Origin: Bacteroidota bacterium
GTDB lineage: Bacteria > Bacteroidota > Bacteroidia > Chitinophagales > Chitinophagaceae
Direction: 5' to 3'
Assembly (NCBI GenBank): GCA_018267585.1
Contig: JAFDYE010000923.1
Location: forward strand, 1 to 43,195
DNA: 43,195 nucleotides
The translations under genes and the position numbers were made by a program. The first letter of the stretch is position 1, and each line of letters begins with the position of its first letter. Below the pieces are notes generated by a model. The model was not told where the DNA came from and ran no database searches. It saw only the letters and a list, made by a program, of their open reading frames with translations. This document shows, one piece after another, positions 369 to 43,195 of the stretch.

Positions 369-3300
369 TTCAGACTATTGTAGTGGTTTAAAAATATCCG
401 ACAATTCTCTTTGCCATGCAGCACGAACAGTCCTTCGCCTTCGTGCGCCTCCAGCAATTCGACCAGCCTTCGAATCCTTTCCTCTACCGGCTGACCTGCC
501 GTCCGCAGCGCCAGTATTTCCAGGTCCGCGATCGCATAGTCAACTATAAAGCCGAGCCGCCGCATATTTGCCGTCGCGAGCCGAGCGCGGCATTTCCTGA
601 GCACCCCCAGTGCGGAATCGAGGGAAGCAGCTGATTTTAGCTGCGTATAGGGGATGCTGCAATAGCTGCGCCCGATATCTTCCAAAACGCGGTATGTCTC
701 CGCCGCTGCGCCGGTGTCTCCTGCATACTGCGTTCTCAAATACTCGCCAATTAAGGAATCCACGTTCGCACCCGGATCCCAGGCCAGGCCCGCCAGCACA
801 TAGTGATTCAATCCATAGGTATACCAGTCTCCCGGCTCGGCATAGGTCGAAATGCCGCGCCAGCCGTTGTCACGATACCACCGCAGCTCCTGCTGCATAT
901 AGTGCGGCAGCATCACCGGCAGCGACCGCCACGCATATTTGCGGTAATAGGAGTATACGCCGAGATCCCCTCTGAATCTTTGCTGCCAGTGTTGCATCGC
1001 CGAGAAATAGGGCGCATTGGGCCTAACAGAGCTATCGTAGACGGGTCGCTCAAAGCTCTGATTGATCGGGCATACATCCACCAGAATATCGTCATTTAAC
1101 CGAACCAGCGGCGGCTCCAGCACCTGCCCATAAGCGATGATCTCCACCTTCAGCCCCGGCCGCACAGCGCGGGCCACCGAATCGACCTCGTTGATCAGCC
1201 TGGCCTGCCGGTCTACCGCGGTGCCCAGTCCGGCCGTCGCCGGGCATTCCGCCCACTTCGCCACATCCGGCGGCCAGCAATCGAAAATATCGATTTCCGG
1301 GTGTCCGCGCAGATACCGTTGCACATTCCCGAGGAAATAGCGCACCGCCCCGGGGTTGCCGGTATTGAAGACCAGGTTCTCCGTCGAGTCGGAGAGTCCA
1401 GCATGGTTGCAGCCAAACCAGTCCGGATGTTGCCGGAACAAGGTGCCGCCGTCCATCCGGGCGCTGATAAAATTTTGATAGCCGTGTCCGCCCACCTCGA
1501 TCAGGAGTCCCCGCCGTCTGAGCTCTGGCGTCAGCGCCTGCCGCCAGTCATCCCATTTTACGCGCCCCGCGCCCTGGTAATTCAGCGGCACCTGCAGGAC
1601 ATTGAGGCGTACTTTAGGCATCCATGCGATGATCTGCCGCAGGTTTTCGATGGTATGGGTCCGGCCTTCCTCGACGTCCAGCTTTCGATAGGACATCGCC
1701 GGCAGTTCATGGACGGGCAGGGTGGCATCGTACGCCAATACGTTGAAAGAGGGGATATATTCCGCTTTGCCGCGGTAACTATCGAATGCCGGCGCTGCCC
1801 ATACACAACCCAGCCGGTGTAAGAGGTCATATACCGCATACAGCAGCGCCCGGTCCGATCCCCCGCTTAGCACGAGGTCGCGGCCCTGCAACCTGATGCG
1901 GTATTCCTCGGAGGACATCGAGTCCACTTTTTCGAGCAGGATCCGCGGTCCTGTCCTGGCGATGGAAAAATCCGCCCCACTCATTTTTGTCAAATATCGT
2001 TGCAATTCCCGGATGGCGAATGCCGCGATCCCCGGACGATCTGTCGCTGTCCCGGGGCGAGCTGCCAGGGTCCCGGGACGAGCTGCCACGGTCCCGGGAC
2101 GAGCTGTCGCAGTCCCGGGGCGCCTCACCAGGCCGATCCCCACCATTGCCTTGCCATCCCTCGCCAAAACAAGTTGACGCTCTCCATATTCCGCCGAGTC
2201 GCCCGGCCCTTCCTTACCCATCCTCAACCCGTCCCCACAGTACCGATTATGCGAAATGATCGTCCCGGGCTGAGCGGTTCCCTTCTTCCCGACATTAAAG
2301 ATCACCACTCCCCGCGCGGTAACGACCGTATTCCCGCGCACGATATTGTGGGAATGATCCTGCGTAATGTTGAAGACTCCCCATTCATTCGCATTCACTT
2401 TGCGCCGGACGATCGTGTTGTCTTCGATCAGGCAGCCCTCGCTCCGCCAAAGTGCGACGAACTGCTGGTAGTCGTCACTGTAATTCCGGTAGATATGAAA
2501 GTTGCGGTAGCCCGGATTCTTCTTCACGTCGGTCCATGTTACTTCCAGGAATCCCTGATTGTCCCGCGTCTCGTTGTCGTGAATGGATATATCCGATTTG
2601 TCATACCGTGCGTCGTCGATCTCCAGCGCCCCGCCATCCGCCCCGCTGCCATAGGCATTGGGCCCCCAGCCGATCCTCGGGTCTACCGCGCTGTAGTTGA
2701 CGATGCGGTTAAAGCGTACCTCCTGGTGGTCGGCCCCGAGCCAGATGCCCAGCGGGCCCCAATTCCATTCTTTCAATACCCGGTTGCAGTCGTGGATATA
2801 GTTGCGTTCTATCAGCGCATAGGCTCCGTTGCTCCGGATGCCCGCTACGCAGTCCCGAATTTCGTTGTCCCGGACGATGCAGTGCTCCGCTCTGCGACCG
2901 ATATGGATCGCCCCCATTTCCCATTCGACCCAGCCATCGCCGGCGTGGGTCTGAGGTGGTCCATTGACTGCGAGGGTCTCGCGCGGTCCATTGACTGCGT
3001 GGGTCTGGCATGGTCCATTGACGTGGGTCTGGCGTGGTCCTTCGCCGTTATATTCGACGGGCGACCAGGCGGCCGTCCCGCTAAAGGACAGCCGCTCGAC
3101 GATCACCCAGCTTCCGCTGAGGCGGATACAGTTGCCATAGGTTCCGTCTGCAAACACCGGGTTGGTAAACATAGGGGCCGGCGCAGTGGACGGACCATAG
3201 TCCGTGAGTACGATATAGTTGCCCGATCTTCCGGAATCGGCGATCACCAGTCTTCCGCTGAACAGCGAGCCGCGCCGGAAACAGACGGAGTCTCCCGGAT

Positions 3301-3460
3301 GCAGATGGACGCGCTGCAATGGCGCAAAGCTTTTCCAGGGACCGGCCGCCGTCAGGCCGCTGTTGCCGTCATCCCCCGATCGCGAGTCAAGGTAGTAAGC
3401 TTTGCCGGCGAAGCTCTGTCCGGCAGATAATATCATCAATATGATCAAAAGTTGCTTCAT
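365..3460 (-). CDS. Exported parallel beta-helix / DUF4838 (alpha-glucuronidase-like) fusion protein
   Basis: 1031 residues with a signal peptide (cleavage near residue 18, SFA/GKA). Residues about 20-420 begin with YYLDSRSGDDGNSG and continue with repeated N-rich rungs (RDNEIRD, IERNYIHD, IEDNTIV), typical of right-handed parallel beta-helix proteins. Residues about 425-580 resemble the N-terminal domain that precedes GH67/GH20-type catalytic domains (AIRELQRYLTKMSGADF). Residues about 580-1000 look like DUF4838, a TIM-barrel domain (YRKLDVEEGRTH, WPPDVAKW). Two in-frame tandem repeats interrupt it, at residues about 137-174 and 443-478. The gene abuts the upstream hydrolase gene with no gap and overlaps the next ATG, so it is internal to the PUL operon. 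A glycan-cleaving role is inferred; neither domain allows the substrate to be named. Confidence 0.8.
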   Translation of the reverse strand: MKQLLIILMILSAGQSFAGKAYYLDSRSGDDGNSGLTAAGPWKSFAPLQRVHLHPGDSVCFRRGSLFSGRLVIADSGRSGNYIVLTDYGPSTAPAPMFTNPVFADGTYGNCIRLSGSWVIVERLSFSGTAAWSPVEYNGEGPRQTHVNGPCQTHAVNGPRETLAVNGPPQTHAGDGWVEWEMGAIHIGRRAEHCIVRDNEIRDCVAGIRSNGAYALIERNYIHDCNRVLKEWNWGPLGIWLGADHQEVRFNRIVNYSAVDPRIGWGPNAYGSGADGGALEIDDARYDKSDISIHDNETRDNQGFLEVTWTDVKKNPGYRNFHIYRNYSDDYQQFVALWRSEGCLIEDNTIVRRKVNANEWGVFNITQDHSHNIVRGNTVVTARGVVIFNVGKKGTAQPGTIISHNRYCGDGLRMGKEGPGDSAEYGERQLVLARDGKAMVGIGLVRRPGTATARPGTVAARPGTLAARPGTATDRPGIAAFAIRELQRYLTKMSGADFSIARTGPRILLEKVDSMSSEEYRIRLQGRDLVLSGGSDRALLYAVYDLLHRLGCVWAAPAFDSYRGKAEYIPSFNVLAYDATLPVHELPAMSYRKLDVEEGRTHTIENLRQIIAWMPKVRLNVLQVPLNYQGAGRVKWDDWRQALTPELRRRGLLIEVGGHGYQNFISARMDGGTLFRQHPDWFGCNHAGLSDSTENLVFNTGNPGAVRYFLGNVQRYLRGHPEIDIFDCWPPDVAKWAECPATAGLGTAVDRQARLINEVDSVARAVRPGLKVEIIAYGQVLEPPLVRLNDDILVDVCPINQSFERPVYDSSVRPNAPYFSAMQHWQQRFRGDLGVYSYYRKYAWRSLPVMLPHYMQQELRWYRDNGWRGISTYAEPGDWYTYGLNHYVLAGLAWDPGANVDSLIGEYLRTQYAGDTGAAAETYRVLEDIGRSYCSIPYTQLKSAASLDSALGVLRKCRARLATANMRRLGFIVDYAIADLEILALRTAGQPVEERIRRLVELLEAHEGEGLFVLHGKENCRIFLNHYNSLK
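2028..2132 (-). repeat. Five-unit 21-bp in-frame tandem repeat
   Basis: Units start at 2028, 2049, 2070, 2091 and 2112. Each carries a gtcccggg core on the plus strand, degenerate in the 2028 unit. In the coding frame each gives a seven-residue motif of the type ARPGTVA. The array sits between the first strand (MVGIG) and first helix (AIRELQRYL) of the GH67-N-like domain, so it is an insertion in a loop rather than an ordinary interdomain linker. Confidence 0.9.
2958..3050 (-). repeat. 27-bp in-frame tandem repeat in beta-helix domain
   Basis: The sequence ggtccattgac recurs at 2958, 2985 and 3012, with a partial ggtcc copy at 3036 (spacings 27, 27, 24). In the coding frame the units read VNGPxQTHA or VNGPRETLA. 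Spacings are multiples of three and the frame is kept. The array lies in the N-terminal beta-helix domain, between EYNGEG and GWVEWEMGAIHIG. Confidence 0.9.
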
Positions 3461-5008: not shown

Positions 5009-5022
5009 GTTGTAGGAATTTT

Positions 5023-7218
5023 TTACCTGGTTGCCCGGAAAAAATCAGCCGCTCCCATCTTCTTACGCGTCTCCCCCGGCCCATTCCAGTCCAGCTTAAA
5101 AAAGGGTTCTCCCTGATCATGGTCACGGTGATAGCTCAGCCGGAAAGGATGCAGACCCTTCTTCAGCACGATCGTCGCCTCCCTCGGCAACCCGCCCGGG
5201 TAGCCGTAGTCCGCGTCGATCACCTGGATATCGTGAATGCGCAGGAACGCCTTTGTGTCACTGGTCAGGAAGAAATGGTATTCGCCGTCCGCCGGCGCCA
5301 TAATATAGCCGCTAAAGACATATACCTGTCCCAGGGTTTTGCCCGTATCGACCAGCGAAGGGTAGGGTGCATAGCCCGTGGCCGCCGGCGTTAGCCCCGA
5401 CACCTGCGGGATCCAGGGGAATGGACCGTTATAGACCGCCCAGTCGACTCCCGGAGCAAGCCCGTCGGCCGGAGCAAGCCCGTCGCCCCGAGCCAGACCG
5501 CTGGCCGGGGGAAGCCTGCCGCCCGGAGCAACCGAAGCGGGATTCACGCCGGGAACCGGCTCGTTATCGTAAGGCCGAGGGGACCCATCCCCGTTGTGGT
5601 GCAGCTGCAGGGCCCGTGCCTTCAGCTGCTGCTGCAGTCCTTTCATGCTATCTTGCCCCGCCAGGTTATTCCGCTCAGCCGGGTCATCGATCACATTGTA
5701 GATCTCAAAATCATCGGCCGCCGACTTCACGTCGTACCGGACGCCAACGTAATTGCCCAACCGCAGGAGTTGCGTCTGGTTACGGGCCCGCCCGCGGTGG
5801 CTCGCCGAGAAGACGGAATAGTCCGGGGTCTTCCCGTCATTCTTGTATTCGATATATACCGTCGGATCCTGCTGCACTCCCTTGCCCGTGAGCGCGGGCA
5901 GCAGCGAGACGCCGTCCATCCGCTCGGGCGGGGGCTGGCCGCTGAGACCGATAAAGGTAGGCGCCCAGTCATAGGCTATAGCCGGCATCTTCAGGGCCCT
6001 GGACGCCGCCACATGCCCTGGCCAGCGGACTATCGCAGGCACCCTGACGCCGCCTTCCCAGGTGTCCGCCTTGATCCCTTCAAAGGGCCCGAAACTGCGG
6101 AAGAATGTGGGCTTGTTGGGCGGGAAGCGGTCCTCGGGAAGGTAGGACTCGTTGGACGGTCCATTGTCCGACGTATAGACGACCATCGTATTGGAGTCGA
6201 TCTTCAGGTCCTTCAGCAGCTGCAGCATGTCCCCGACGGCGTCGTCGATGCGGTGGTTTGCGGTTGCATATCGCTGATAGGTGGACGGCCAGTGTACTTC
6301 CGGTGTCGAAGGGTCGCCATCGTCGTCATAGAGCGCGTCCGCGTATGCGGGGTAGGTGTAGGAGTCCGGCGTCCCCGAGGCCGTGCTGATCATACGTCCC
6401 GGCGTCCCCAGCCACTGCATGCCGCCATGAAGCCCGCCGCCTTTTGGATAGGCCTGTGTCGGAAGCTCCTGGACGGCGTGGGGAGTTTCGAATGCGAGGT
6501 AGAGGAAGAAGGGTTTGTTTTTCTCCCTTCCGCATATGTGATCGACGATATATTTTTTCGCCGCGGCTGTCCAGAGGTCCGCGGTATAGCATTTGTCCAG
6601 CTGTGAAGTGATATTGGTATGGTTCTGCCACACGGCCTTGCCGTTCTCCGCCCAGTATTTCCGGTACAGTGCTTCTTTCGGGTAGTGTTCATGGCCGTCG
6701 GCGTGGCGCATATAGCCAAAAAAGTAATCGAAGCCGCGTCGCAGGGGGTGCGCCGGCCATAGGTAGCCATTGAGATCGTATTTGTCATTGCCCTCCAGTC
6801 CCCACTTGCCGATGATCGCGGTGCTGTATCCCAGCTGCCGCAGGGTGCCGGGCAGGGTATAGTTGTCGTCCAGCGCCTTGTCGAATTCGTTGTCCCGTAC
6901 ATTGGCGTGTCCCTGGCTGACACCCAGCATCAGCGAGGCCCGCGACGGGGCGCATATCGGCGCCGCGACATAGTACTGTGTCAGCATCGTTCCCTCGCCG
7001 GCCATCCGGTCGATATTCGGCGAGACCTCGAAAGGCTTTGACCGGTCGTTCAGCCGCGCCCGCTGATTCTGGTAGAAAACGCCCAGGTCTCCGTAGCCCT
7101 GGTCATCCGCCAGAATGAAAATGATGTTCGGCGCCTTCCCCGGCCGGGTCGCCTTTTGCGCGTGAGCCGTTGCTGCGATGCCCGTCAGCGTCATCCCCAG
7201 TAGTAAATATCCAGTCAT
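5023..7218 (-). CDS. Secreted S1-type sulfatase with C-terminal PA14-like domain
   Basis: 731 residues from the chosen ATG (7216-7218). That ATG lies one base after the upstream TGA and gives a clean signal peptide (MTGYLLLGMTLTGIAATAHA). An ATG five codons earlier (7233) would overlap the upstream gene by 14 bp. The sulfatase fold spans about 25-540, starting with NIIFILADDQGYGDLG, whose aspartates bind the metal. C89 in CAPSRASLMLG is the cysteine converted to formylglycine, so a maturase encoded elsewhere is required. Residues about 590-725 (VFSGYIMAPADGEYHFFLTSD, split across strands) look like a PA14 carbohydrate-binding domain. A repetitive linker (about residues 560-590) separates the two. 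Operon position points to desulfation of the PUL glycan; sulfate position and sugar are unknown. Confidence 0.9.
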   Translation of the reverse strand: MTGYLLLGMTLTGIAATAHAQKATRPGKAPNIIFILADDQGYGDLGVFYQNQRARLNDRSKPFEVSPNIDRMAGEGTMLTQYYVAAPICAPSRASLMLGVSQGHANVRDNEFDKALDDNYTLPGTLRQLGYSTAIIGKWGLEGNDKYDLNGYLWPAHPLRRGFDYFFGYMRHADGHEHYPKEALYRKYWAENGKAVWQNHTNITSQLDKCYTADLWTAAAKKYIVDHICGREKNKPFFLYLAFETPHAVQELPTQAYPKGGGLHGGMQWLGTPGRMISTASGTPDSYTYPAYADALYDDDGDPSTPEVHWPSTYQRYATANHRIDDAVGDMLQLLKDLKIDSNTMVVYTSDNGPSNESYLPEDRFPPNKPTFFRSFGPFEGIKADTWEGGVRVPAIVRWPGHVAASRALKMPAIAYDWAPTFIGLSGQPPPERMDGVSLLPALTGKGVQQDPTVYIEYKNDGKTPDYSVFSASHRGRARNQTQLLRLGNYVGVRYDVKSAADDFEIYNVIDDPAERNNLAGQDSMKGLQQQLKARALQLHHNGDGSPRPYDNEPVPGVNPASVAPGGRLPPASGLARGDGLAPADGLAPGVDWAVYNGPFPWIPQVSGLTPAATGYAPYPSLVDTGKTLGQVYVFSGYIMAPADGEYHFFLTSDTKAFLRIHDIQVIDADYGYPGGLPREATIVLKKGLHPFRLSYHRDHDQGEPFFKLDWNGPGETRKKMGAADFFRATR
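5451..5540 (-). repeat. Five-unit 18-bp in-frame tandem repeat in sulfatase linker
   Basis: Units begin at 5451, 5469, 5487, 5505 and 5523, with a ccggagcaagcccgtcgg consensus on the plus strand. In frame they encode six-residue units such as GLAPAD, GLARGD and RLPPAS. The array lies exactly between the sulfatase and PA14-like domains. Confidence 0.9.
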
Positions 7219-7219
7219 A

Positions 7220-9082
7220 TCAATCGATTCCATATTGCATCCAGGTTAACCTCCATGTCCCTGCCTCGCGGCCACCGGCCTCATAAAAGGGCCGGAACAC
7301 CACCGGCTTTTCCCCGGGCGGAGAGAAGACATATTTATTATCGCCATCCTCTTTCACGAATTTCCCAATCTGCCCGGCCCCGACCTTAAAATTCATTTCC
7401 CTGTCCTTTCCTTCGACCAGGCCGTCACTGGCATAGACCAGGGGTCCGCGCTGAAGCGCAAACCAGTTGACGCGGTACAGGTCTTCCTTGCCCTGCGGCA
7501 TGACCGCAAATTCCGGCTGCTCTTCCACGCGCAACGGCATCGGCAGCAGTAGGTCGACGACGTCCCCTTTTTTCCACTGCCGGTCGATGGTATAGTAGGT
7601 CCCCGCCTTAGGTGCAGCAGTATCCACAGCCTTGCCGTTGACGGTAACCTGTGCGCCCGAAGTCCAGGCCGGTATCCGCAGATAGAGGGGAAACCGTACC
7701 GCTGCCGAAGGCGTAACGCTGAGCCGGATATTGCCCTCGAATGGATAGCCCGTCTCCTCTTGGAGCTTCACTGCAGTGCTGCCGAACACCGTTGTCAAGG
7801 AACCTGCGCTATAGACATTGCAGGCGATGCCGCCACGACGCCGCGTATAAGCGACCTCCGACAGCTCTTCCAGCGCCATCGCGCCGCTGGAAGGGCAGCA
7901 GTCATTGAAATTGGCCGGGTGTTTCCGCCCGTTGGTAAAGGAGTGATAGGTCCAAAGCTGTCCATCGGGCAGCTGCGCGCCCAACAGCGCATTATAAGCG
8001 GACTTTTCGATCTCTTCGCTATATTTTGCCTCTCCCGTCAGCTGTAGCAAATACCGGTTGAGCTGCATCCAGCTCATGATGCTGCAGGTCTCGACAAAGC
8101 CATAGGGAGACCAGAACTCCCGCGAATTGAAACATTCCTTATGTTTTCCGATGCCGCCCCAGGGGCCACCGGTGATGGTCAGGTGATGGTCATGGACATT
8201 CTTCCAGGCGGCTTCCACGGTCCTGAGATAGGCCGGGTCTCCCGTCACGGCATAGAGCTTGGCGACACCCAGTAAATTCCAGATGATCTGGTAGGCTTTG
8301 CCGTCGGCTACCGTCTCGAGGTCGCGGCCTGCCGCCATTGCGGCCGTCAGCCGAAGGCCCTCTTTTTTGTCTGCCTCGCGCATGATCCGCTGCGCGAGGT
8401 CGAGGTACCGCCTGTCGCCCGTTGCCCGGTAGAGCATGACTACGGGGTCGAGCGCGACGGTAGCGGAGTAGCCATAGCGGGTGCCGTAGTCGGTGATATC
8501 CGCGGCTCCTTCGCCAAAGGTTTTTAGAAATAGTTCTCCGATCTTCTTCGCTGCCTCGAGACAGTGCTCATCGTGCAGACGGGCGTTCACCTCCAGTAAG
8601 CCCAGTACTGTGCAGCTTAAGCCCCAGACATCCCAGGACTTTTTGTGCTGCTTTGAAGCGGCATTGGTTATCCGCAACGCCGGCGAGTAAGAACCCATAT
8701 ACCCGTCGGGTTCCTGGTTGCGGACAAGGAAATCGGCTGTGCGCAGCAGCAACGCCTTCAGGCTGTCGTCGCCCGTCCGAATGGTCGCCAGGGCCGTAGC
8801 GTACATCCATTTCCCCGCGTGTTCGCCATACCAGTCGGTGGTTATATTTCTGCTGCGCGCTTCCGGGGTGAACATCGTGATCAGCGCGCCGTTATTCCAA
8901 CCGGGCAGCGAACGCAGGCGTCCGTGCTCGCTCAGGTCAAGGGCCTTGCCCAGCAGGCCTTTCAAAGCGACATTGGATGGGCTCATCAGGCTATCCACCG
9001 TCTGTGCGGCACCGTCCGACGGTTGCGTGAACCCGCTCGCCTGCAGCAAGGTCATGGCGGCTGCCAATAGGAAAATTTTCAT
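7220..9082 (-). CDS. GH127-type beta-L-arabinofuranosidase (DUF1680), exported
   Basis: 620 residues from the ATG at 9080-9082; an in-frame TTG two codons upstream is less likely. A signal peptide (MKIFLLAAAMTLLQASGF) precedes an alpha/alpha-barrel domain (about 30-430) and beta-sandwich C-terminal domains. E331 and C333 in VETCSIM, with C395-C396 in NDCCPSS, correspond to the Glu-Cys-Cys-Cys zinc site of HypBA1, where one cysteine is the nucleophile. The catalytic machinery therefore looks intact. GH146 shares this architecture, and the family also contains members with other furanoside or uronate specificity. It follows the transporter gene by 54 bp, the largest gap in the operon, and is followed one base later by the PA14 sulfatase. 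The predicted role is release of a pentofuranose (inference). Confidence 0.87.
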   Translation of the reverse strand: MKIFLLAAAMTLLQASGFTQPSDGAAQTVDSLMSPSNVALKGLLGKALDLSEHGRLRSLPGWNNGALITMFTPEARSRNITTDWYGEHAGKWMYATALATIRTGDDSLKALLLRTADFLVRNQEPDGYMGSYSPALRITNAASKQHKKSWDVWGLSCTVLGLLEVNARLHDEHCLEAAKKIGELFLKTFGEGAADITDYGTRYGYSATVALDPVVMLYRATGDRRYLDLAQRIMREADKKEGLRLTAAMAAGRDLETVADGKAYQIIWNLLGVAKLYAVTGDPAYLRTVEAAWKNVHDHHLTITGGPWGGIGKHKECFNSREFWSPYGFVETCSIMSWMQLNRYLLQLTGEAKYSEEIEKSAYNALLGAQLPDGQLWTYHSFTNGRKHPANFNDCCPSSGAMALEELSEVAYTRRRGGIACNVYSAGSLTTVFGSTAVKLQEETGYPFEGNIRLSVTPSAAVRFPLYLRIPAWTSGAQVTVNGKAVDTAAPKAGTYYTIDRQWKKGDVVDLLLPMPLRVEEQPEFAVMPQGKEDLYRVNWFALQRGPLVYASDGLVEGKDREMNFKVGAGQIGKFVKEDGDNKYVFSPPGEKPVVFRPFYEAGGREAGTWRLTWMQYGID

Positions 9083-9136
9083 AGTCAATTATTTTTACTC
9101 CATCCGTAAATTCTTCCGATGATAACTTCTTCCTGG

Positions 9137-10138: not shown

Positions 10139-10152
10139 GATGAATATATTTT

Positions 10153-24076: not shown

Positions 24077-24141
24077 GGGGTATGGGCGAACGCGGTCGAT
24101 TTCGTATCTTTCATCCCTTATTCAATTCTTATTTGATCAAT

Positions 24142-25545
24142 ATGCGTATTAACCGATCTGTTACTCTTGTCGCCGCTCTGTTATTTGTTATTTCGACCTA
24201 TGCGTCGGGAGGCGGGGACGTCCTGAACGGAAGGGAGTTGGAAAGGGGGATCGCTGAAGGAGGAGGGCCGTCGGAACGGGGGATCGGCGTGGGAGAAGGG
24301 GGTGTCGCCGTGGGAGGAAAGGCGTTGGAACGGCGGATCGCTGAAGGAGGAGGGGAATTGGAACGGGGGATCGGCGTGGGAGAAAGGGCGCCGGAAAGGG
24401 GGGCGCTGCGAGGCGGGCCCAAGCCGATCGTGACGGGCGCGGACCAGACGGCGTTGTATCTTCCGTTGCTAAAGGGTAAGCGCGTTGGTATTCTTGGCAA
24501 TCCGACGACCATTATCGGCAAGCGCTCGCTTGTCGACAGCCTGCACGACCTTAAGATTGACATCAGGGAGATCTTTGGGCCCGAACACGGTTTCCGCGGG
24601 AAAGCCAGCAATGGCGCCAAGGTCGCCGATGAGGTCGACTCTGCCACCGGCATCCCGATCATCTCGCTATATGGGACCAAACGCAAGCCGTCAAAAGAGG
24701 ATATGGACGCCATCGATATTATGATCTTTGATCTTCAGGACGTCGGATGCCGATTTTATACCAACATCAATGTGCTGCGGAATATCATGGAGGCCTGTGC
24801 CGAGTCGGGGAAGGAGTTGTTGATCCTGGACCGTCCGGACCCCAATGGGTATGTCGACGGGCCGATACTGGATATGTCGCTGAGATCGGGCGTCGGGCAA
24901 TTCCCTGTACCGATCGTTTATGGCATGACTATCGGCGAATTCGCGAAAATGATCAATGGGGAAGGCTGGCTGGCCAATAAGGAGCAATGCCGGCTGAAGA
25001 TCATCCCTGTTAAGAACTACACGCATGACCGGTATTATCAGTTGCCGGTGAGTCCGTCTCCGAATCTCAATACCCAGCAGTCGGTCCTGCTTTATCCCTC
25101 GCTCTGTCTTTTCGAGGGGACGGTCATCAGCCAGGGGCGGGGGACGCATATGCCGTTCACGGTCCTGGGGAATCCGGAGCTGAAGCAATCGTATTCCTTT
25201 TCGTTTACGCCGGTGAGTATCCCCGGGATGTCCGAGACCCCGCTCCACCAGGATCAGGTCTGTTATGGTCTCGATCTGCGTACGGTCGATGCCGACAGCC
25301 TCCGGAGGACCGGGAAGATCAATATCAGCTGGATGATGGAGTTCTACAAGGCCTACCCTTACAAAGAGAAATTCTTTGATTATCACCAAAGCAAGCAGAT
25401 GGGGGATATCAACAAGCTCGCAGGGACGACCGCCTTTAAGGAACAGATCGCGGCCGGTATGAGCGAGGAGGCTATTCGCAAGAGCTGGGAGCCGGGGTTG
25501 AGCAATTATAAACAGCTGCGGAAGAAATATCTTTTATATCCCTGA
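24142..25545 (+). CDS. DUF1343 / NamZ-type exo-beta-N-acetylmuramidase (GH171), exported
   Basis: 467 residues from the ATG at 24142, which starts a signal peptide (MRINRSVTLVAALLFVISTYA). A frame opening 20 codons earlier lacks a secretion signal at its start. After the signal comes about 70 residues of Gly/Glu/Arg-rich repeat, then the DUF1343 domain (about 95-465): GKRVGILGNPT, EIFGPEHGFRG, IDIMIFDLQDVG and LDRPDPNG. Family knowledge: NamZ (B. subtilis YbbC, Tannerella forsythia) removes MurNAc from the non-reducing end of peptidoglycan fragments. The domain looks complete. It is one of several possible cell-wall-related genes in this stretch. Whether this member acts on MurNAc or another sugar cannot be read from sequence alone. 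Confidence 0.88.
   Translation: MRINRSVTLVAALLFVISTYASGGGDVLNGRELERGIAEGGGPSERGIGVGEGGVAVGGKALERRIAEGGGELERGIGVGERAPERGALRGGPKPIVTGADQTALYLPLLKGKRVGILGNPTTIIGKRSLVDSLHDLKIDIREIFGPEHGFRGKASNGAKVADEVDSATGIPIISLYGTKRKPSKEDMDAIDIMIFDLQDVGCRFYTNINVLRNIMEACAESGKELLILDRPDPNGYVDGPILDMSLRSGVGQFPVPIVYGMTIGEFAKMINGEGWLANKEQCRLKIIPVKNYTHDRYYQLPVSPSPNLNTQQSVLLYPSLCLFEGTVISQGRGTHMPFTVLGNPELKQSYSFSFTPVSIPGMSETPLHQDQVCYGLDLRTVDADSLRRTGKINISWMMEFYKAYPYKEKFFDYHQSKQMGDINKLAGTTAFKEQIAAGMSEEAIRKSWEPGLSNYKQLRKKYLLYP
24234..24420 (+). repeat. In-frame compound tandem repeat with 87-bp higher-order period
   Basis: Two subunits alternate, one encoding ERGIAEGGG and one ERGIGVGE. The block tcgctgaagg at 24251 recurs at 24338, and atcggcgt at 24283 recurs at 24370; both distances are 87 bp (29 codons). 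The array occupies the stretch between the signal peptide and the folded DUF1343 domain. Confidence 0.88.
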
Positions 25546-27022: not shown

Positions 27023-27090
27023 GGGATTTGAAATGGTGGGCCGCAGGGGAACTGATGGACCGCAGAGGAATCGATGGACCCGTAGGAGAC
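27010..27090 (+). repeat. Degenerate short repeat spanning the 3' end of the YdcF-like gene
   Basis: gatggacccgtagg occurs at 27010-27023 and again at 27073-27086. Related units gatggaccgcagagg (27054) and aatggtgggccgcagg (about 27031) lie between, at spacings of about 19-22 bp. The first unit supplies the last codons and the TAG stop of the gene at 25736. The core atggacc also occurs in the coding strand of the 27-bp repeat at 2958-3050. Confidence 0.65.
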
Positions 27091-27144: not shown

Positions 27145-30100
27145 ATGGAAAGTAGCACATTCAGCATTGGCGGCCGTAGGAGCATTGTTGCGACGGTACG
27201 CTGGGCTGCGGTACTGGTTATGGCATTGTTATTTTATTCGATGCCGACTTACGCAGGGGGAAAGCCTTTTGAGCGTGTATCGGGAACGATCACCGACAGC
27301 ACGGGGAAGCCGCTCGAAGGAGTCAATGTAATGGTAAAGGGTGGAAGAAAGGGTGTCTCGACCAACGCCAGGGGTGAGTTTGTGATCGAGGCTAACGCGG
27401 GAAGTACGTTGATCGTGTCCGGCGCGGGCTTCCTGGAGCAGCAGATAAAGGTCACGGGGGAGGTTATGACCATCAGTCTTAGGGAGAATGCGAGGATGTT
27501 GGAAGAAGTGTATGTGGGATATACGCGTCTGCGCAAGGCGGACGTGACCGGCGCCATGGCGAGCGTCAAGGCGAGCGAAATGAACCTGAGTACTCCGACG
27601 ATCGGTCAGGCGCTTGTGGGTAAGGTGGCCGGTGTGCAGGTGTCGCAGGTCAGCGGCGCGCCTTATGGCGGCGTCAAGATCCGGGTACGGGGGACGGGCT
27701 CTATCAATGCCAGCTCTGAGCCGCTGTATGTGATCGACGGTTATCCTGTCGGCGGCAATATCATGCAGGGGCCGGGCAACAGCACCAATGGGACCGGCGG
27801 CTACAACCCCAGCCAGAATGGCAACGATCTCTTCATCAATCCGGAGGATATCGAATCGATCGAGATATTGAAGGACGCCGCGAGCGCCGCTATCTATGGG
27901 TCGAGGGCGTCCGGCGGGGTGGTGCTTATCACGACCAAGAGGGGGCGGAGCGGCAAGGGCACGCTTACCTATGATCTCCAGGTGAGCAGGCAACAGCTGG
28001 CCCATAAGGTCAAACTGCTGAACGCTTCGCAGTTCGCCGATCTCTTTGTCGATGGCCGTAATAACAACTACAAGGACATACTTCTGGCGAATGGCACGGG
28101 GTGGAATGACTCTTATCTGTCCGATGACAACGCGACCCGGGTGAAGAAGGCGGGGCAGACGGCGACGAGCTGCTCGGTCTGTATCATTTCGGATCTGTAT
28201 GATTTCCCCACGCATACCCTGAAGACGCCAAAATACAACACGGACTGGCAGGACGTGCTGTACAGCAATGTTACCACTCAGCGCCACAACCTGTCTTTTT
28301 CCGGCGGATCGCAGAATACGCGTTACCTGATCAGCGGCGGTTATCTCGATCAGCCGGGTATCCTGAACAGCACCTATCAGAAGCGGATCAACCTGCGTGC
28401 TAATATCGACGCTGACGTGACGCCCAGGCTGAAGGTCTCGTCCAGTGTGTTTGTAACCAATACGGTCAACCGCGAAGTAGAGGAGGGGCGTTTTGACCAT
28501 GGTCCGATCTTAGGGGCACTGGTGTATATGCCGATCTTTCCTGCCTTCAATCCGGATGGAAGCGTGCAGACGGCGGACCAGGGTGCTTCGAAGCAGTGGG
28601 ATGGCTATACCTATGCTTTCCAGGGTATCGAAAACCCGCTGGCGTTGGCGCAGCGCAATAAGATCACCCGCAATGGCACGAGGGCGATGTACCAGGCCAG
28701 CGCTTCGTATCAGATCATCAAGGACCTGGTATTCAAAGCCTCTTTGGGTGGGGAGACCTACCAGGAAAAATACGAATACTATTTCCCTACCAATTTGAGC
28801 AACGGCATCAATCCTCCGGGGTCGCCGCAGTCGATACTGGCTGCCAACGCCGCGGCGCAGAGCCTGACGACGCAGGATAAGCTGGCGGAGTTCACGCTGA
28901 ACTATAAAAAGGAATTTGGGAGGCACCGGTTCGATCTACTGGGCGGTTACACGGCGCAGGAGACCAAGACGGATGTGCTTGCGGTTGCGGCGAAGGACTT
29001 TACGAGCGATAACGTCCCCGATATCACGGCGGTCGGATCTACGGCGGGCGACTTTACGCAGCAGAGCAATACGGGTAAGACGACTACGACGTTGCTTTCC
29101 TACCTGGGGCGAGTGGTATACAGCTACAATAACCGCTATTTTTTGACGGGGTCGTTCAGGAGTGATGCGAGTTCGCGTTTTGGCCCGGCGAATAAATGGG
29201 GTCAGTTCGGGTCGGTTGCGGCGGGGTGGACGTTGTCCAATGAATCGTTCTACCATGACTGGCTGGGGCAGAATTCGCTGTTGAAGCTGCGTGCGAGCTG
29301 GGGTCTCACGGGTAATAATAATATCGGGAACTACCAGTATGAACAGGATATTACGGGCGCGGGCGGTGTTGTCATCGGCAATAACGTCTATAACAGCAAC
29401 TGGGCTGCGGGGTTGAAGGACCCTGCCCTCGGATGGGAATCCACGTCGCAGCTGAATTTCGGGCTGGATGCCTCCACCTGGCATAACCGGCTGTCCTTTA
29501 ACGTCAACTACTATATCAGCCGGTCTTACAACCTGCTGCTGAACAGGCCGATCACAGCAACGGGCAATACCGACAACAATACGACGATTCTGACCAACCT
29601 GCACGATGCCAATATTCACAATCAGGGTATCGATCTGCAGGTGGACGTCAAGGTTGTTCAGTCGAAGGACTTCAACCTGGGTTTTACGGGCAATATTACG
29701 CACAATGCGAACAAGGTGGTGAGTCTGGGCGGCGCGAGCGAGATACAGGTGGCGGGAGCGGAAAGGCAGTATACCACGCATGTGACGCGTGTAGGCGCGC
29801 CGATCGGATCGTTCTACGGGGTGAAGGTGGCGGGTATGGTCAGGGAGAAGGACCTGGCGGCTGTCGCCTCGGACCTGGCCGTTTACAAGGCGAACAAGAA
29901 CAGTTTTCCCACGGGCTATAAGCTCCAGGCTTTCCCGATCTCTTCGTATTCTTCCACGCCGCTGGAGGCGGGGGATTTGTATTTCAAGGACAAGAACGGC
30001 GACGGAGTCATCAACGAATCGGATAAGGACGTTATCGGCTCTCCCTATCCCGACTTCACTTATGGGTTCGCCATCACGGCCAATTACAAGATGGTCGATC

Positions 30101-32124: not shown

Positions 32125-32164
32125 GGTTTTTTTTTGTGTTGTTTCCGGTATCCCGGAGAAGCAG

Positions 32165-32195
32165 CGCCACGATCTTTCGGTCGTGGCGTTTTTTT
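32165..32195 (+). terminator. Intrinsic terminator of SusC/SusD pair 2
   Basis: An 8-bp perfect stem pairs cgccacga (32165-32172) with tcgtggcg (32181-32188) around an 8-base loop, followed directly by seven T residues (32189-32195). This is a canonical rho-independent terminator. Confidence 0.93.
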
Positions 32196-32221
32196 ATTGT
32201 GGGGCCAAGGTGGTTGCCGCG

Positions 32222-32347
32222 GGTATGGTCGTTATCGCGGGTATGGTGGTGATCAAGGGCATGGTGGTGATCAAGGGTATGGTGGTTATCGCGGGCATGG
32301 TGGTGATCGGGGGTATGGTAGTTATCGCGGGCATGGTGGTGATCGCG
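32222..32347. repeat. Seven-unit 18-bp minisatellite
   Basis: Exactly seven contiguous 18-bp units with consensus GGTATGGTGGTTATCGCG and substitutions at only a few positions, including T/C at position 3 and CGCG versus CAAG at the end. Every reading frame is open. One frame gives GYGGYR-type hexapeptides, another GMVVIA, and the opposite strand ITTIPA-type units. It begins 27 bp after the terminator T-run. Confidence 0.95.
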
Positions 32348-32474
32348 GCTGCGGTGGCCCGGGTAGCGGCGGGGGGGAGGGTGTAGTCAGGAGATGCAAC
32401 ATCAGGCGGGGGCATGACCGGTATCATTGCGGGTGGATGGGCGACCGGTTATTATTGTGCTAAAATCTCCGGTC

Positions 32475-33179: not shown

Positions 33180-33201
33180 CGGTTATTTAGCTGACCAACC
33201 A

Positions 33202-33783: not shown

Positions 33784-33804
33784 GGGGGCGATACCCCCTT
33801 TTTT
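33772..33804 (+). terminator. A9 run, stop codon and terminator-like hairpin between sigma and anti-sigma genes
   Basis: A9 at 33772-33780 is followed by the TAG stop (33781-33783). Then come GGGGG (33784-33788), the loop cgata, CCCCC (33794-33798) and six T residues (33799-33804). The hairpin has the form of an intrinsic terminator or attenuator and would reduce FecR transcription relative to sigma. The A9 run just before it is a potential slippage site. Confidence 0.75.
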
Positions 33805-33826
33805 CCGCCGGTGGTGTCCTGGTAGT

Positions 33827-35095
33827 ATGGACCGCATGGAAGAACATATTGGACGGCTCTTCGACCGATATTATAACAAGACCGCGACGGCGGAAGAAAG
33901 GCAGGAATTTTTGTCCTGGCTGGACCGTTCGGCCAGCGACGAGGAAGTCGCCGCGCTGATGCGGGACGCGTGGGAGAACCTGGGGACTGGCGAGTCCTTG
34001 TTCGGTGAAGAAAAGGGGAGGGCCATGCTTGCGGCAATATTCGATGAGAGGCCGTCTGAGACGGTGCAGACCATGATGGAGGGTCCGGCTCCTGTCCGGC
34101 GTATCGGGACGGGGCTTGGTATCGGCGCTGTCGCAGCTGCCGTCGCGGCTGTCGTCGCCGCCATTTGGCTTTTCTACCCCTCGAAGATCCGCAAGGCGCA
34201 GCCGGATATTTCCATTCCTTTGGCGAAGAAGGATATTGCCCCCGGGGGCAACAAGGCATTGCTGGTCCTTTCAGACGGCTCATCGATCGTCCTGGACAGC
34301 GCCCGCAATGGCGTCATCGGTCACCAGGGAGCCGCCGTCATCAACAAAACTTCCAGCGGGGCGCTCGCGTACGAAGCGCTGGCGACAGGGGCTAATCCTG
34401 CGGCGGCCGCTAAGGCGGCGGGGGCGGCTGATCCTGCGGCGGCCACCGGCGGTCCTGCCTATAACCGCATTACCACCCCGAGGGGAGGCCAGTACGAGGT
34501 CACCCTTGCCGATGGCAGCAAGGTCTGGCTGAACGCCGCGTCTTCGCTGCGATTTCCGTCTTCGTTCACGGGAGACCGGCGCGAGGTCGAGCTCACGGGG
34601 GAAGCCTATTTCGAGATAGCAAAAAATACTGCTGCCCCTTTCGTGGTGAAAGTGGGCGATGATACCAGGGTCCAGGTGCTGGGCACGCAGTTCGACGTCA
34701 TGGCGTATGATGATGAGCAGGTCCTGCGAACCACTTTGCTCGAGGGGGCGGTAAAGGTTGCCCATCGTGGGGCCTCGAGTCTGCTGCGGCCCGGACAGCA
34801 AGCCCGATTTGCCGCCGCGTCCTCTGCGATCGACGTTGTTGAAGAGGGGGACATGGAGGAAGCCGTCGCCTGGAAGAACGGGCTTTTTGAGTTCAACCGC
34901 GCCGACATCCATACCATTATGCGGCAGATCGCCCGGTGGTATGACGTCGACGTCCGCTACGAGGGAAAGCCGCCGGCCCGTGAATTTGTCGGCAAGGTAT
35001 CGCGCAATGCCAATGTATCCGAGGTGCTTCGAATCCTCGAGCTAAGCCATATCCATTTTCGTATTGAGGGCAAGACGATCGTAGTTGTGCCCTGA
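33827..35095 (+). CDS. FecR-family anti-sigma factor with DUF4974 C-terminal domain
   Basis: 422 residues. The cytoplasmic N-terminal helical domain (about 1-85) should bind the sigma factor. A single membrane helix follows (about 95-117, IGAVAAAVAAVVAAIWLFY). The periplasmic FecR domain (about 210-310) has TPRGGQYEVTLADGSKVWLNAASSLRFP, one domain start shown in part, and ELTGEAYFEIA. The C-terminal DUF4974 domain (about 345-420) contains LFEFNRADIHTIMRQIARWYDVDV-like sequence. An Ala/Pro repeat lies between the membrane helix and the FecR domain. The DUF4974 domain is expected to contact the STN domain of the SusC encoded 148 bp downstream. ATG 33827 is used; 33836 is also possible. Confidence 0.93.
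   Translation: MDRMEEHIGRLFDRYYNKTATAEERQEFLSWLDRSASDEEVAALMRDAWENLGTGESLFGEEKGRAMLAAIFDERPSETVQTMMEGPAPVRRIGTGLGIGAVAAAVAAVVAAIWLFYPSKIRKAQPDISIPLAKKDIAPGGNKALLVLSDGSSIVLDSARNGVIGHQGAAVINKTSSGALAYEALATGANPAAAAKAAGAADPAAATGGPAYNRITTPRGGQYEVTLADGSKVWLNAASSLRFPSSFTGDRREVELTGEAYFEIAKNTAAPFVVKVGDDTRVQVLGTQFDVMAYDDEQVLRTTLLEGAVKVAHRGASSLLRPGQQARFAAASSAIDVVEEGDMEEAVAWKNGLFEFNRADIHTIMRQIARWYDVDVRYEGKPPAREFVGKVSRNANVSEVLRILELSHIHFRIEGKTIVVVP
34391..34444 (+). repeat. Three-unit 18-bp in-frame repeat in FecR
   Basis: gctaatcctgcggcggcc (34391-34408) and gctgatcctgcggcggcc (34427-34444) differ at one base. Between them lies the diverged unit gctaaggcggcgggggcg. They encode ANPAAA, AKAAGA and ADPAAA, directly before the conserved FecR domain. 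Confidence 0.8.
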
Positions 35096-35146
35096 CCTAT
35101 TATACTTTATCCTTACTGTTGATGCTGGATGGGCGCCTAAACAAAA

Positions 35147-35191
35147 GCCGGAAGTGCGGTAACACCTCCGGCCGGAGTCTGGGTCGACCCA
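35147..35191 (+). promoter_or_regulatory. Structured leader upstream of STN-SusC gene
   Basis: GCCGGA (35147-35152) pairs with TCCGGC (35167-35172). The stem continues through one mismatch into gtg/cac pairs around the loop cggtaa. Directly after comes TGGGTCGACCCA (35180-35191), a perfect 12-bp palindrome. Neither is followed by a T-run, so they look like leader RNA hairpins or operator sites rather than a terminator. They lie 53 bp and more ahead of the SusC start. Confidence 0.5.
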
Positions 35192-35243
35192 AGTTGTCAA
35201 TCATTCGGGACTGCTTATTGTTTAACCCAAACAAACCAAAGTT

Positions 35244-38690: not shown

Positions 38691-38712
38691 TTCAAACCGG
38701 AAAAAATTCGTC

Positions 38713-40149: not shown

Positions 40150-40181
40150 TCCCGATCTCTCCCAGGTAAAGCAATTACGAT

Positions 40182-42896
40182 ATGAGACCATACCGGCGGA
40201 TCATCCGTAGCGGATGCGTAGCGGCCGTCTTGTGCCTGCCCATCGCCCTGTTATTAGCGAATACATATCAACATGAGAGGCCCGGTCGCCGAATCTACAT
40301 CGGGACCGCCTTTGAGAATGCGTCGCCCCTCGAATGGTCTGTTGACAGTACGGGCCGCGTCGACATTGCGCTGCTGTATGACCACGAGCGGTACTCGGTA
40401 AACCGCAGCAACGGGCACTGGCTCTTCCAGGTGCAGGCGCCGAAGGGCACCCGCGTCGAGCTTGTCCTTCGCAATTTTGACAACTACTGGAACGGCCGTC
40501 TGGCCGCCGCGATCACCGACCGCAGTCCTGCCTGTGTCTCCGTTGACGGGAAGACGTGGAAGACAGTCGGAGCATCCCGGATCGACGGCAACCGTCTGCG
40601 CATATCCGTCGATATGCCTGCCGACAGCCTGTACGTGTCCGAGACCCAGCCTTACCGGATCAGCGACCTGCGGGCGCTTGTCGAAGAAATAAAGTCCGAC
40701 CCGCTGGTAGGCATCACGACTATCGGCCACACCGTAGAAGGCCGGCCGCTGGAGATGATCCGGGTAGGCCGGCCCACGGCGCCGCACCGGGTCTTTGTCC
40801 GGGCCCGCGCGCACGGCTATGAGGCCGGCGGCAACTGGGTCGCGCAGGGCCTGATAAGGGGTCTGCTTTCTCCGGCGGGGCGGCCGATGCTCGACCGGTA
40901 TTGTCTCTATATTCTACCGATGGCCAATAAGGATGCCGTTGCGAGGGGCAGGTCCAGATTTAACAGCCGCGGGATAGACCTGAACCGCCACTGGGACAGT
41001 GCGGCGGACCCCTTGCTGGCGCCGGAGAACCGGGCAGTGGAGGGCTGGCTCGACGAGGCGTCGCGGCGGGGCTTTCTTCCCGAGCTGGCGATAGATCTCC
41101 ACAACGATGCGGAGGGTCATCTGCATCTTTCTCCTCCCGGCAGCCACAGGGGCTATTTGCGGGATATGCATCGACTGGACTCGCTGCTCCGCCGGTATAC
41201 CTGGTACAGGGAAGGGGCCATCGGGGGAGATGAGTCCGCGGGTGCGCCCATTTCTTCGATCGCCGACGGCCTGCTCCACCGGTATGGGATAAGCGCAGCG
41301 GTCCTCGAGTTCAACTGGGAGTGGGCGGCGGGCCTCGGACGTACGCCGCTGGGAAAGGACTGGGAGGAGTTCGGCGCGGGGCTGGCGAGGGTGTTCGACG
41401 AATATTTTAAAACCGGGACCTCTGCGGGCCCGGCGACCGCGGCGGGTCGGGTCGATCGGGGGGAAGACACGCTCCGACTCGACTCCACTCTTGTCGGCGT
41501 CAGTACCGTCCTTACCGGTCTCGAAGTGCCGTGGGAGCTTGCCTGGGGGGCCGACAATTGTATATGGTTCACGGAACAGACGGGACGCATTACCCGCTGG
41601 GATCCGGTCTCCGGCAGCCGCCGCCAGCTGCTGCAGCTGCCCGACCTGTACAGGAAGCGTCTTGGTCTGCTGAGCATGGCCTCCGACATGCCGCGTCGTC
41701 CCTGGGTCTTTGTCAACTATCTATTCCTGAAGCCCGACTCTTCGGTATGGGCGAAGGTGGTACGATACACCTATGAGAACGACTCGCTGATGGCGCCGAA
41801 GATCCTCATTCAGTGGCCGGCGCATATCGGACACAACGGTTCGCGGATCGCCATCGCCCCCGACGGCCGGCTTATGATCGCGACGGGCGATATCACGCGC
41901 GACAGTGCGGCGCGCGACAGGCGTACGCCCAATGGCAAGATACTCCGCCTGAATATGGACGGCTCGATACCTGCCGACAATCCCTACCCCGGCAGCCCTG
42001 TCTGGGCCAGTGGTTTTCGTGTTCCGCAGGGCCTCGTCTATTCCCCCGCCGGCCGTCTCTACAGTGCCGAACACGGCGACGCTACCGACGATGAGGTCAA
42101 CCTGATCCGCAAAGGTGGCGATTATGGATGGCCGGTGGTGACGGGTTATTGCGACCAGCCCGGCGAGAAAAAATGGTGCAGGCTCAGTCCTATCGTGGAG
42201 CCCCTCAGGGCCTGGACTCCGACGATCGCTCCGGCGGCCCTTGCCTGCTATTCCTCGGGGGCCATCCCGGAATGGAAGAATGCGCTGCTCCTTGTAACGC
42301 TCAAGACCCAGAGTCTTCGCGTATTGCAGCTGGACCGTGCCGGAACGCGGATCACCCGCGAGCGGGTCTATCTCGAGAAGCGGTACGGCCGTCTTCGCGC
42401 CCTCTGCGTCTCGCCAGCCGGAGACGTCTATATCGGCACGAGCAACAGGGACTGGAACCCTCCGGAGAATTTCCCCGTGGGCGGTGACGACCGGATCATC
42501 CGGATCCGCCGTATCGGGAGGATGACTGCCGGCGCGCGTGCTGCGGTGCGCGGCGTGGTTCATGCTAAGACCACGCCCGGAGCGGAAGGCGCCATCCTTT
42601 ATACAAGCTACTGCAGCAGTTGTCACAAGGCGGAAGGCCAGGGTCTCGCCGGCAGTTTTCCTCCGCTGGCCGGCAACCCCTTCGTCGCGGGGGACAAAAG
42701 GGCGCTGGTGCGCATTCTTTTGAAAGGCCTGTCGGGGCCTGTACAGGTGAACGGCGCGGGGTACGATCAGGCCATGCCTTCCTTCGCCTTCCTGAAAGAC
42801 CGGGATCTGGCAGCGCTGCTGACGTATATCCGTTGGCGTTTTAACAAGGCGGGGGGCGTCACGGAAAAAGAAATCTCAAAAGAAAGGAAACAATGA
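40182..42896 (+). CDS. M14 carboxypeptidase-like / PQQ sugar-dehydrogenase-like propeller / cytochrome c fusion
   Basis: 904 residues with an N-terminal signal segment (about 8-26). (1) Residues about 35-170 are the beta-sandwich that precedes some M14 peptidases, and about 170-410 the M14 domain. Zinc ligands are H211 and E214 (AHGYE) and H307 (IDLHND); R269 lies in GIDLNRHW; catalytic Glu is E376 (VLEFN). All are present. (2) Residues about 440-785 resemble the GSDH six-bladed propeller of soluble glucose dehydrogenase: VPWELAWG, HNGSRIAIAPDGRLMIATGD with H551 at the expected base position, FRVPQGLVYSP (usual RNPQG), and AEHGDATDDEVNLI. (3) Residues about 800-895 form a class I cytochrome c: CSSCH (C811, C814, H815) and M865 as probable sixth ligand. 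The propeller would oxidise a sugar with PQQ and pass electrons to the heme; the M14 substrate is unknown. The stop overlaps the next ATG. Confidence 0.87.
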   Translation: MRPYRRIIRSGCVAAVLCLPIALLLANTYQHERPGRRIYIGTAFENASPLEWSVDSTGRVDIALLYDHERYSVNRSNGHWLFQVQAPKGTRVELVLRNFDNYWNGRLAAAITDRSPACVSVDGKTWKTVGASRIDGNRLRISVDMPADSLYVSETQPYRISDLRALVEEIKSDPLVGITTIGHTVEGRPLEMIRVGRPTAPHRVFVRARAHGYEAGGNWVAQGLIRGLLSPAGRPMLDRYCLYILPMANKDAVARGRSRFNSRGIDLNRHWDSAADPLLAPENRAVEGWLDEASRRGFLPELAIDLHNDAEGHLHLSPPGSHRGYLRDMHRLDSLLRRYTWYREGAIGGDESAGAPISSIADGLLHRYGISAAVLEFNWEWAAGLGRTPLGKDWEEFGAGLARVFDEYFKTGTSAGPATAAGRVDRGEDTLRLDSTLVGVSTVLTGLEVPWELAWGADNCIWFTEQTGRITRWDPVSGSRRQLLQLPDLYRKRLGLLSMASDMPRRPWVFVNYLFLKPDSSVWAKVVRYTYENDSLMAPKILIQWPAHIGHNGSRIAIAPDGRLMIATGDITRDSAARDRRTPNGKILRLNMDGSIPADNPYPGSPVWASGFRVPQGLVYSPAGRLYSAEHGDATDDEVNLIRKGGDYGWPVVTGYCDQPGEKKWCRLSPIVEPLRAWTPTIAPAALACYSSGAIPEWKNALLLVTLKTQSLRVLQLDRAGTRITRERVYLEKRYGRLRALCVSPAGDVYIGTSNRDWNPPENFPVGGDDRIIRIRRIGRMTAGARAAVRGVVHAKTTPGAEGAILYTSYCSSCHKAEGQGLAGSFPPLAGNPFVAGDKRALVRILLKGLSGPVQVNGAGYDQAMPSFAFLKDRDLAALLTYIRWRFNKAGGVTEKEISKERKQ

Positions 42897-43195
42897 CAAG
42901 AAGAAGTTTTATCGGCTGCGCGTCCGCGGCCCTGATGGCCTCGCTTGCGACGGGGGAGGGGAAGGCTTCGCTTGCGATGGGGGCCGGTGGGGCTTCGCTT
43001 GCGATGGCCGGGGCGCCCGGCAGACGCATCGGGGTCATCGGGCTCGATTCGTCCCACAGCCTGGCCTTTGCAAAAGCCTTCAATGCTGCGGACGCAGCCC
43101 CTGCGTTCCGTGGTTATAAGATAGTATCCGCCTACCCGTACGGCAGCCGTATGATACCCGGCGCCGGGGAAAAGATCGCCGCCAACAGCGTCGCC
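42893..43195 (+). CDS. Gfo/Idh/MocA-family oxidoreductase with Tat signal (N-terminal part, runs off window)
   Basis: 101 codons are visible. The ATG overlaps the upstream TGA as ATGA, indicating translational coupling to the M14/dehydrogenase/cytochrome gene. MTRRSFIGCASAAL is a twin-arginine signal, so the protein would be exported folded, possibly with its NAD(P) cofactor. After a repeat (residues 16-42) comes RRIGVIGLDSSHSLAFAKAF, a Rossmann-type GxxGxDxSH start seen in exported Gfo/Idh/MocA proteins of Bacteroidota, then YKIVSAYPYGSR. These enzymes catalyse sugar oxidation, reduction or redox-assisted glycoside cleavage. In this operon it adds a second redox step. The family call is good; the rest of the gene is outside the window. 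Confidence 0.78.
   Translation, partial: MTRRSFIGCASAALMASLATGEGKASLAMGAGGASLAMAGAPGRRIGVIGLDSSHSLAFAKAFNAADAAPAFRGYKIVSAYPYGSRMIPGAGEKIAANSVA
42938..43018 (+). repeat. Three-unit 27-bp in-frame repeat at Tat signal cleavage region
   Basis: Three exact-length 27-bp units start at 42938, 42965 and 42992. They encode ASLATGEGK, ASLAMGAGG and ASLAMAGAP. The first half of each unit (gcttcgcttgcgatgg in the second and third) is nearly identical. Confidence 0.9.

Follow-up and report, generated by a model that had tools for sequence, protein, structure and literature searches.

What places short tandem repeats, in frame, in one exported protein after another along a single bacterial contig? The question is raised by a 43,195-bp stretch of DNA from a member of the Chitinophagaceae (Bacteroidota), namely the entire contig C914 (hereafter the window) of a 7.0-Mb assembly in 929 contigs (genome G000). 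The original prediction described eight repeat arrays here and proposed that they reflect a genome-wide tendency linked to exported proteins. Here, array calling, protein alignment, and comparison with related genomes indicate that the arrays are probably ordinary local tandem duplications filtered by purifying selection, for which neither a dedicated system nor a link to export is needed.

Arrays were called with Tandem Repeats Finder (TRF), all counts being based on a score of at least 50 and a period of at least 12; those scoring at least 80 are termed strong, and the tier starting at 50 is termed weak. In the window, TRF returned 10 non-overlapping rows, which include all eight predicted arrays (six coding, two intergenic) at nearly the same coordinates (Table 1). 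The other two rows (18376-18407 and 28174-28206) are two-copy matches in proteins that align gap-free with those of a sister genome, G017, and are thus regarded as ordinary coding sequence. Translation in the gene frame confirmed that the coding periods (21, 27, 18, 87, 18, and 27 bp) are all multiples of three, as predicted, and in frame, giving units of 6-29 residues. When whole samples (86-406 kb) were shuffled by mononucleotide three times each, only 0-2 rows per sample resulted, so chance does not account for the arrays. Both coding and intergenic DNA contain minisatellites, in which units of roughly 10-100 bp follow one another head to tail in excess of chance expectation.

The preference for whole-codon periods is a property of genes rather than of the arrays as such. 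It was assessed in a sample of about 1.45 Mb from four genomes (G000, G017, G002, and G022), with one genome per species in the comparison; the G000 loci were picked partly via ABC-transporter matches and partly by contig number, and the G017 sample contains contig C271, which is collinear with the window and carries 6 of the 15 G017 arrays. Of 82 arrays placed, 57 lie in gene models and 25 between genes, and periods divisible by three account for 50 of the former versus 8 of the latter. Arrays are about six times denser in intergenic than in genic DNA: 27.4 per 100 kb compared to 3.7, 4.1, and 4.7 in genes for exported, membrane, and cytosolic proteins, respectively. Together, the intergenic density and the frame bias within genes suggest that arrays arise widely and that genes retain the harmless ones. 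Gene models were greedy longest open frames, such that upstream "coding" arrays may precede the true start; alignment shows that L015:1775-1881 precedes the likely start of its gene, and L057:8242-8312 is possibly placed likewise.

Within proteins, strong arrays avoid recognized domains. Pfam matches above the cut-off were available for 12 hosts, which carry 13 strong G000 arrays; only one of these arrays overlaps a Pfam envelope, where 7.84 overlaps are expected (P = 5e-6). When sub-cut-off matches are counted too, 3 of 13 overlap, compared to 8.5 expected (P = 0.0008), and without the window hosts the count is 1 of 9, compared to 5.05 expected (P = 0.003). For this test, envelopes were entered by hand and a second FGE stretch was assumed. 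The remaining 6 of the 19 strong G000 arrays in gene models fell outside it: L015:1775-1881 (before the likely start), L015:7496-7633, and L047:72-194 offered no usable Pfam frame, two lie in the unscanned locus L048, and one lies in a twin-arginine translocation (Tat)-signal gene cut by the window end. The earlier description of the sites as interdomain linkers, loops, and post-signal regions therefore agrees with the strong arrays touching a Pfam domain far less often than expected.

Once in place, the repeat units of G000 diverge in a neutral-looking manner. Differences between copies are spread evenly over the first, second, and third codon positions (77/443, 88/435, and 85/424; excluding the window, 48/314, 57/308, and 54/300), and codon differences comprise 44 synonymous and 145 nonsynonymous changes. 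This even spread suggests that the repeat peptides are not under selection, and a conserved repeat peptide was rejected for G000, whether or not the window is counted.

Each of the five proteins that carry the six coding window arrays has a signal peptide or membrane segment by a simple hydropathy rule, as originally noted, and their arrays lie in linkers. These features would suit adaptive, length-variable linkers, in which gain or loss of copies adjusts how far exported surface enzymes reach or how they are displayed; work on Periscope proteins indicates that length variation in surface proteins can matter (PMC8201768), and unit peptides may be constrained in G002. The host composition is, however, expected in any case, given that the lenient rule assigns 20 of the 23 window genes, or 92% of the bases in these genes, to the exported or membrane class. 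Across the four genomes, neither of two hydropathy classifiers, one lenient and one stricter, detected enrichment. Under the lenient rule, 34 of 50 in-frame arrays lie in exported or membrane genes, which make up 67.1% of coding bases (p = 1), as do 17 of 26 strong arrays (p = 0.84); under the stricter rule, there are 24 arrays in 642 kb of exported and 33 in 715 kb of other coding DNA (p = 0.5). Strong arrays also occur in hosts of cytosolic type: an ABC ATPase, with a 36-bp array in a stretch absent or much shorter in six relatives; a PIF1-type helicase, with an array ahead of its helix-turn-helix domain, at a position where the sequence is shorter in six relatives; and a MarR-GNAT protein described below. 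The proposed link between arrays and export was thus rejected. Together with the greater density of intergenic arrays and the lack of conservation among G000 unit peptides, these results make adaptive linkers distinctly unlikely.

Comparison with G017 indicates that several of the window arrays were gained recently. The first 19 kb of the window is collinear with C271 at about 78% DNA identity, and 14 window genes were aligned as proteins with the best-matching frames of G017. Except for N-terminal stretches that are ambiguous in two genes, every insertion of at least 12 residues is repetitive or low-complexity, with inserts of 35, 24, and 71 amino acids (aa) found only in G000 and inserts of 33 and 12 aa found only in G017. 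Three coding arrays, those of the DUF4838 protein (QTHAVNGPR-type, 2943-3040), the sulfatase, and the NamZ-type protein, are insertions absent from G017 orthologues that are otherwise 65% (78% over the largest segment), 78%, and 87% identical, respectively, and the DUF4838 gene of G017 carries a 33-aa insert that G000 lacks. A fourth site (2021-2119) is low-complexity in both species, with different sequence and 20 aa more in G000. The check for absence from orthologues was accordingly positive for three of the six coding arrays, and the fourth site is better described as a shared low-complexity position. No near-identical second copy of three host proteins was found in G000.

These arrays also appear young. 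Adjacent copies diverge by a median of 0.17 in 46 G000 arrays (range 0.02-0.48, the upper end being inflated by indels) and by 0.12-0.34 in the eight window arrays, compared to a third-codon-position divergence of 0.498 over 7,812 codons between G000 and G017; most arrays thus look younger than the split of the two genomes. The final repeat copy of the sulfatase array, LAPGVD, is similar to the lone LPGVD found in G017, which is what a locally derived seed would predict. For FecR, whose best-scoring relative is 49% identical, and for the Tat-signal protein, whose best-scoring match outside G000 is 50% identical, no close orthologue was found in the genomes searched, so the sequence comparison marks arrays as recent at those sites that do have a close orthologue. 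The FecR array itself (34391-34444) falls in a stretch of variable length across nine aligned relatives. A NamZ match is present in 37 of 39 genomes searched (G000 included), and among the relatives (all matches of that search, together with 80 loci kept of 313 confirmed) no match starts before residue 93, such that the core of the array is uncovered.

Clean point insertions relative to orthologues could also be produced by a mobile or templated element inserted in frame into proteins, comparable to the Rickettsia palindromic elements, an in-frame mobile element. The original prediction held that this is not one mobile repeat, and a search of 61 arrays of G000 and G017 against the four genomes agrees, in that it gave 1 outside match; a shared mobile unit was rejected for both genomes on this basis. 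No strikingly over-represented word that could act as a seed was found in array-masked DNA. Shared 9-mers are more numerous among the arrays than among tandemised controls (see below), and G002 contains a dispersed, heptad-like repeat family of GCAAGCT type at several places, some of them in gene models (Table 1), for which three test words found no 12-mer or 16-mer match in the G000 and G017 samples. On balance, insertion of a mobile element is highly improbable.

Whether local duplication is unusually frequent in this genome is less clear-cut. Excluding the window, strong arrays occur at 3.1 per 100 kb in G000 (20 in 638 kb), with 3.0 in G002, 1.8 in G017, and 0 in G022 (86 kb). Relative to G000, the corresponding rates are 0.2 in four other genomes of the same genus (1 in 400 kb; p = 0.001), 0.9 in loci of named Chitinophagaceae (112 kb; p = 0.35), 1.0 in other Bacteroidota loci, which all surround NamZ and have a lower G+C content (4 in 414 kb; p = 0.02), and 0.5 in Escherichia coli (1 in 200 kb; p = 0.04). 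For weak arrays, G000 (5.6 per 100 kb) does not differ from the other Bacteroidota loci (4.4; p = 0.4) and is exceeded by the named Chitinophagaceae loci (12.5; p = 0.016), whose weak arrays are AT-rich. Once C271 is removed, the G017 sample (about 352 kb) retains 3 strong arrays. The excess of strong arrays, the equal rate of weak ones, and the few G017 arrays outside C271 point to a modest and uneven elevation. The suggestion of a genome-wide tendency is thus partly borne out, by strong arrays against the same genus, and does not extend to weak arrays.

A purely background rate, with low-complexity linkers in a GC-rich region and a window picked for them, would be consistent with these weak-array and G017 counts and with the post hoc nature of the density seen in the window (10 rows in 43 kb). 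The strong-array excess over same-genus, other Bacteroidota, and E. coli DNA and a strand skew beyond that of controls argue against it, and such a rate is considered unlikely. Two further candidates were rejected: G+C content as sole driver, which showed merely a weak trend over 5-kb bins, and contig ends falling at arrays as evidence of variability within the population (300 bp or less from an end: 3 of 46 arrays versus 1.56 expected; p = 0.2).

The arrays of G000 are skewed in strand composition. Their mean absolute G-versus-C skew is 0.363 (n = 46), compared to 0.225 in GC-matched controls of unit length (maximum of 200, 0.293), and 14 of 26 strong arrays reach an absolute skew of at least 0.5, compared to 1.7 expected (control maximum, 6); of the 20 strong arrays outside the window, 12 do so. 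Among 22 skewed arrays, 20 share the sign of their 1-kb flanks, and the sign does not track the coding strand (6 G-rich, 9 C-rich); intergenic arrays are skewed too (mean, 0.414). In G017 and G002, the mean skew is above the control means and mostly inside the control range. Array G+C is 0.62 in G000 and 0.67 in the window, compared to 0.53 for the whole G000 sample, while the more frequent of A and T makes up 0.252 of G000 arrays versus 0.262 of the background. Slippage on one replication strand would fit this skew, as would seeding from skewed local DNA. An excess of G-quadruplex-type motifs at arrays is suggestive only (G3 motif, 3 of 46 arrays versus 0.37 expected, control maximum 3; G2 motif, 21 of 46 versus 12.1 expected, control maximum 18).

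Local duplication followed by selection would operate as follows. Young minisatellites would form at each site from local sequence during replication or repair, the copying step being a slippage-type tandem duplication and loss its reverse, and duplication would be somewhat frequent in G000, mostly in G/C-rich, strand-skewed DNA. Arrays could originate anywhere; between genes any period would persist, and within genes purifying selection would spare mainly whole-codon periods in linkers, signal-peptide borders, and other tolerant stretches, after which copies would drift, in G000, as if neutral.

A more far-reaching proposal, which we regard as possible and tentative, is that some genomes of the genus have a raised, strand-asymmetric rate of tandem duplication in regions that stay array-rich across species while the sites change, continually writing new linkers that could even bridge neighboring genes. 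A candidate for such bridging is L055:1388-2443 (G000 contig C822), where MarR and GNAT parts share a 352-residue open frame and are joined by an array of 36-bp period (L055:1866-1941). In five of six relatives searched, MarR and GNAT are two neighboring open frames with a stop at the end of MarR; in G022, they also form a single frame, in this case without an array. The fused MarR-GNAT polypeptide is predicted from the open frame.

Several observations weigh against ordinary duplication and filtering as a complete account. One strong array lies inside a Pfam envelope (L126, a coiled-coil type protein), and two weaker ones lie within domains (L065 in ABC_tran and L117 in OEP). In G002, third codon positions differ more between copies (18/171, 26/170, and 48/166, excluding its largest repeat, of 156-bp period), such that some of its repeat peptides may be constrained. 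G000 arrays share 68 9-mers, compared to a mean of 13.8 (maximum, 20) in tandemised GC-matched units, a number that is nevertheless lower than in GC-matched random segments (mean, 115). Most inserts have no clear single-copy seed in the orthologue, and slippage is a presumed step. Finally, counts of G000 arrays per 10-kb bin are overdispersed (P = 0.006, both including and excluding the window), and C271, the collinear G017 contig, is rich in arrays too, at different positions; such clustering is not what a mutational process acting uniformly would produce.

Table 1. Arrays, host genes, and related repeat features (window coordinates unless a locus is given)
Feature	Coordinates	Strand	Context or basis
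Beta-helix + DUF4838 protein with signal peptide (host)	365..3460	-	Pfam; hydropathy rule
21-bp array, 4.7 copies, PGTATAR-type	2021..2119	-	Between beta-helix and DUF4838 domains
27-bp array, 3.7 copies, QTHAVNGPR-type	2943..3040	-	35-aa insertion, cleanly absent from G017 orthologue
Sulfatase-SGSH_C-PA14 protein (host)	5023..7233	-	Pfam
18-bp array, 4.6 copies, LAPADG-type	5450..5531	-	Between SGSH_C and PA14; 24 aa absent from G017
NamZ-type exo-beta-N-acetylmuramidase (host)	24082..25545	+	Pfam
87-bp array, 1.8 copies, strongly G/purine-rich	24229..24388	+	71-aa insert, signal peptide to NamZ_N
Intergenic 19-bp array, period not divisible by three	27037..27080	.	TRF
Intergenic 18/36-bp array	32209..32348	.	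TRF; closely 3' of terminator-like hairpin
FecR (host)	33827..35095	+	Pfam
18-bp alanine-rich array, 3 copies, weak (score 52)	34391..34444	+	Immediately before FecR domain
27-bp array, 2.6 copies, GKASLAMGA-type	42937..43007	+	Directly after Tat-like signal; gene cut by contig end
G002 heptad-like family (GCAAGCT-type)	L159:15236-15371, L161:11276-11315, L161:16935-16966, L157:19031-19063, L169:15677-15752		Dispersed repeats

The setting of these arrays is a region (365-42896) of polysaccharide-utilisation-type loci, including sulfatases, beta-helix proteins, and FecR, together with putative SusC/SusD-like pairs and the putative sigma factor of a sigma factor/FecR pair, names beyond the Pfam matches being assigned from sequence. 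One open frame (40182-42896) combines zinc carboxypeptidase (M14), glucose/sorbosone dehydrogenase, and cytochrome c domains, a fusion that looked unusual. Between genes, a 12-pair terminator-like hairpin is closely followed by the 18/36-bp array (32163-32348). At the window end, 43065-43195 overlaps another G000 contig, C159 (L211), by 131 bp with 3 mismatches; the Tat-signal gene, whose product is a putative oxidoreductase, seems to continue there, which hints at a strain mixture in the assembly.

Several known systems resemble these arrays in part. In the surveys by Subirana and Messeguer (PMC6749651, PMC8161180), bacterial minisatellites, or variable-number tandem repeats, likewise have units of tens of bases, mostly in multiples of three, are often species-specific, and are abundant in a minority of species; in contrast to the constant classes of 20-21 or 52 nt described there, periods in G000 vary from 15 to 87 bp, and the degenerate copies show a G/C skew. 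Archaeal Borg elements carry repeats that are also both genic and intergenic, of independent and recent origin, and leave protein domains undisrupted, yet they are perfect, A-enriched, and enriched in extracellular proteins (PMC9879509), while those of G000 are imperfect (0 of 46 arrays perfect), G/C-rich, without export enrichment, and on a bacterial chromosome. A study of a beta-lactamase gene describes de novo duplications that are similarly in frame at a tolerant site, ascribed partly to direct repeats and slippage (PMC4169377); those are laboratory-selected duplications of two units, whereas the present ones are natural, often have more copies, and affect many genes. Periscope proteins share length-altering repeats in surface proteins, which are folded domains of high identity (PMC8201768), unlike the short, degenerate arrays of G000, 12 of 13 strong ones of which lie outside Pfam domains. 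The general phenomenon is already covered by published work; no report of such arrays in Chitinophagaceae or Bacteroidetes was found among the open-access literature matches listed.

The orthologous empty sites show how new linker sequence enters bacterial proteins, namely by duplication followed by frame and domain filters, and length differences between close orthologues are explainable without a function in surface display. If the raised, strand-skewed rate of duplication holds in complete genomes, this group would be a natural system for measuring the birth of linkers and gene fusions; otherwise, the arrays represent ordinary genome biology.

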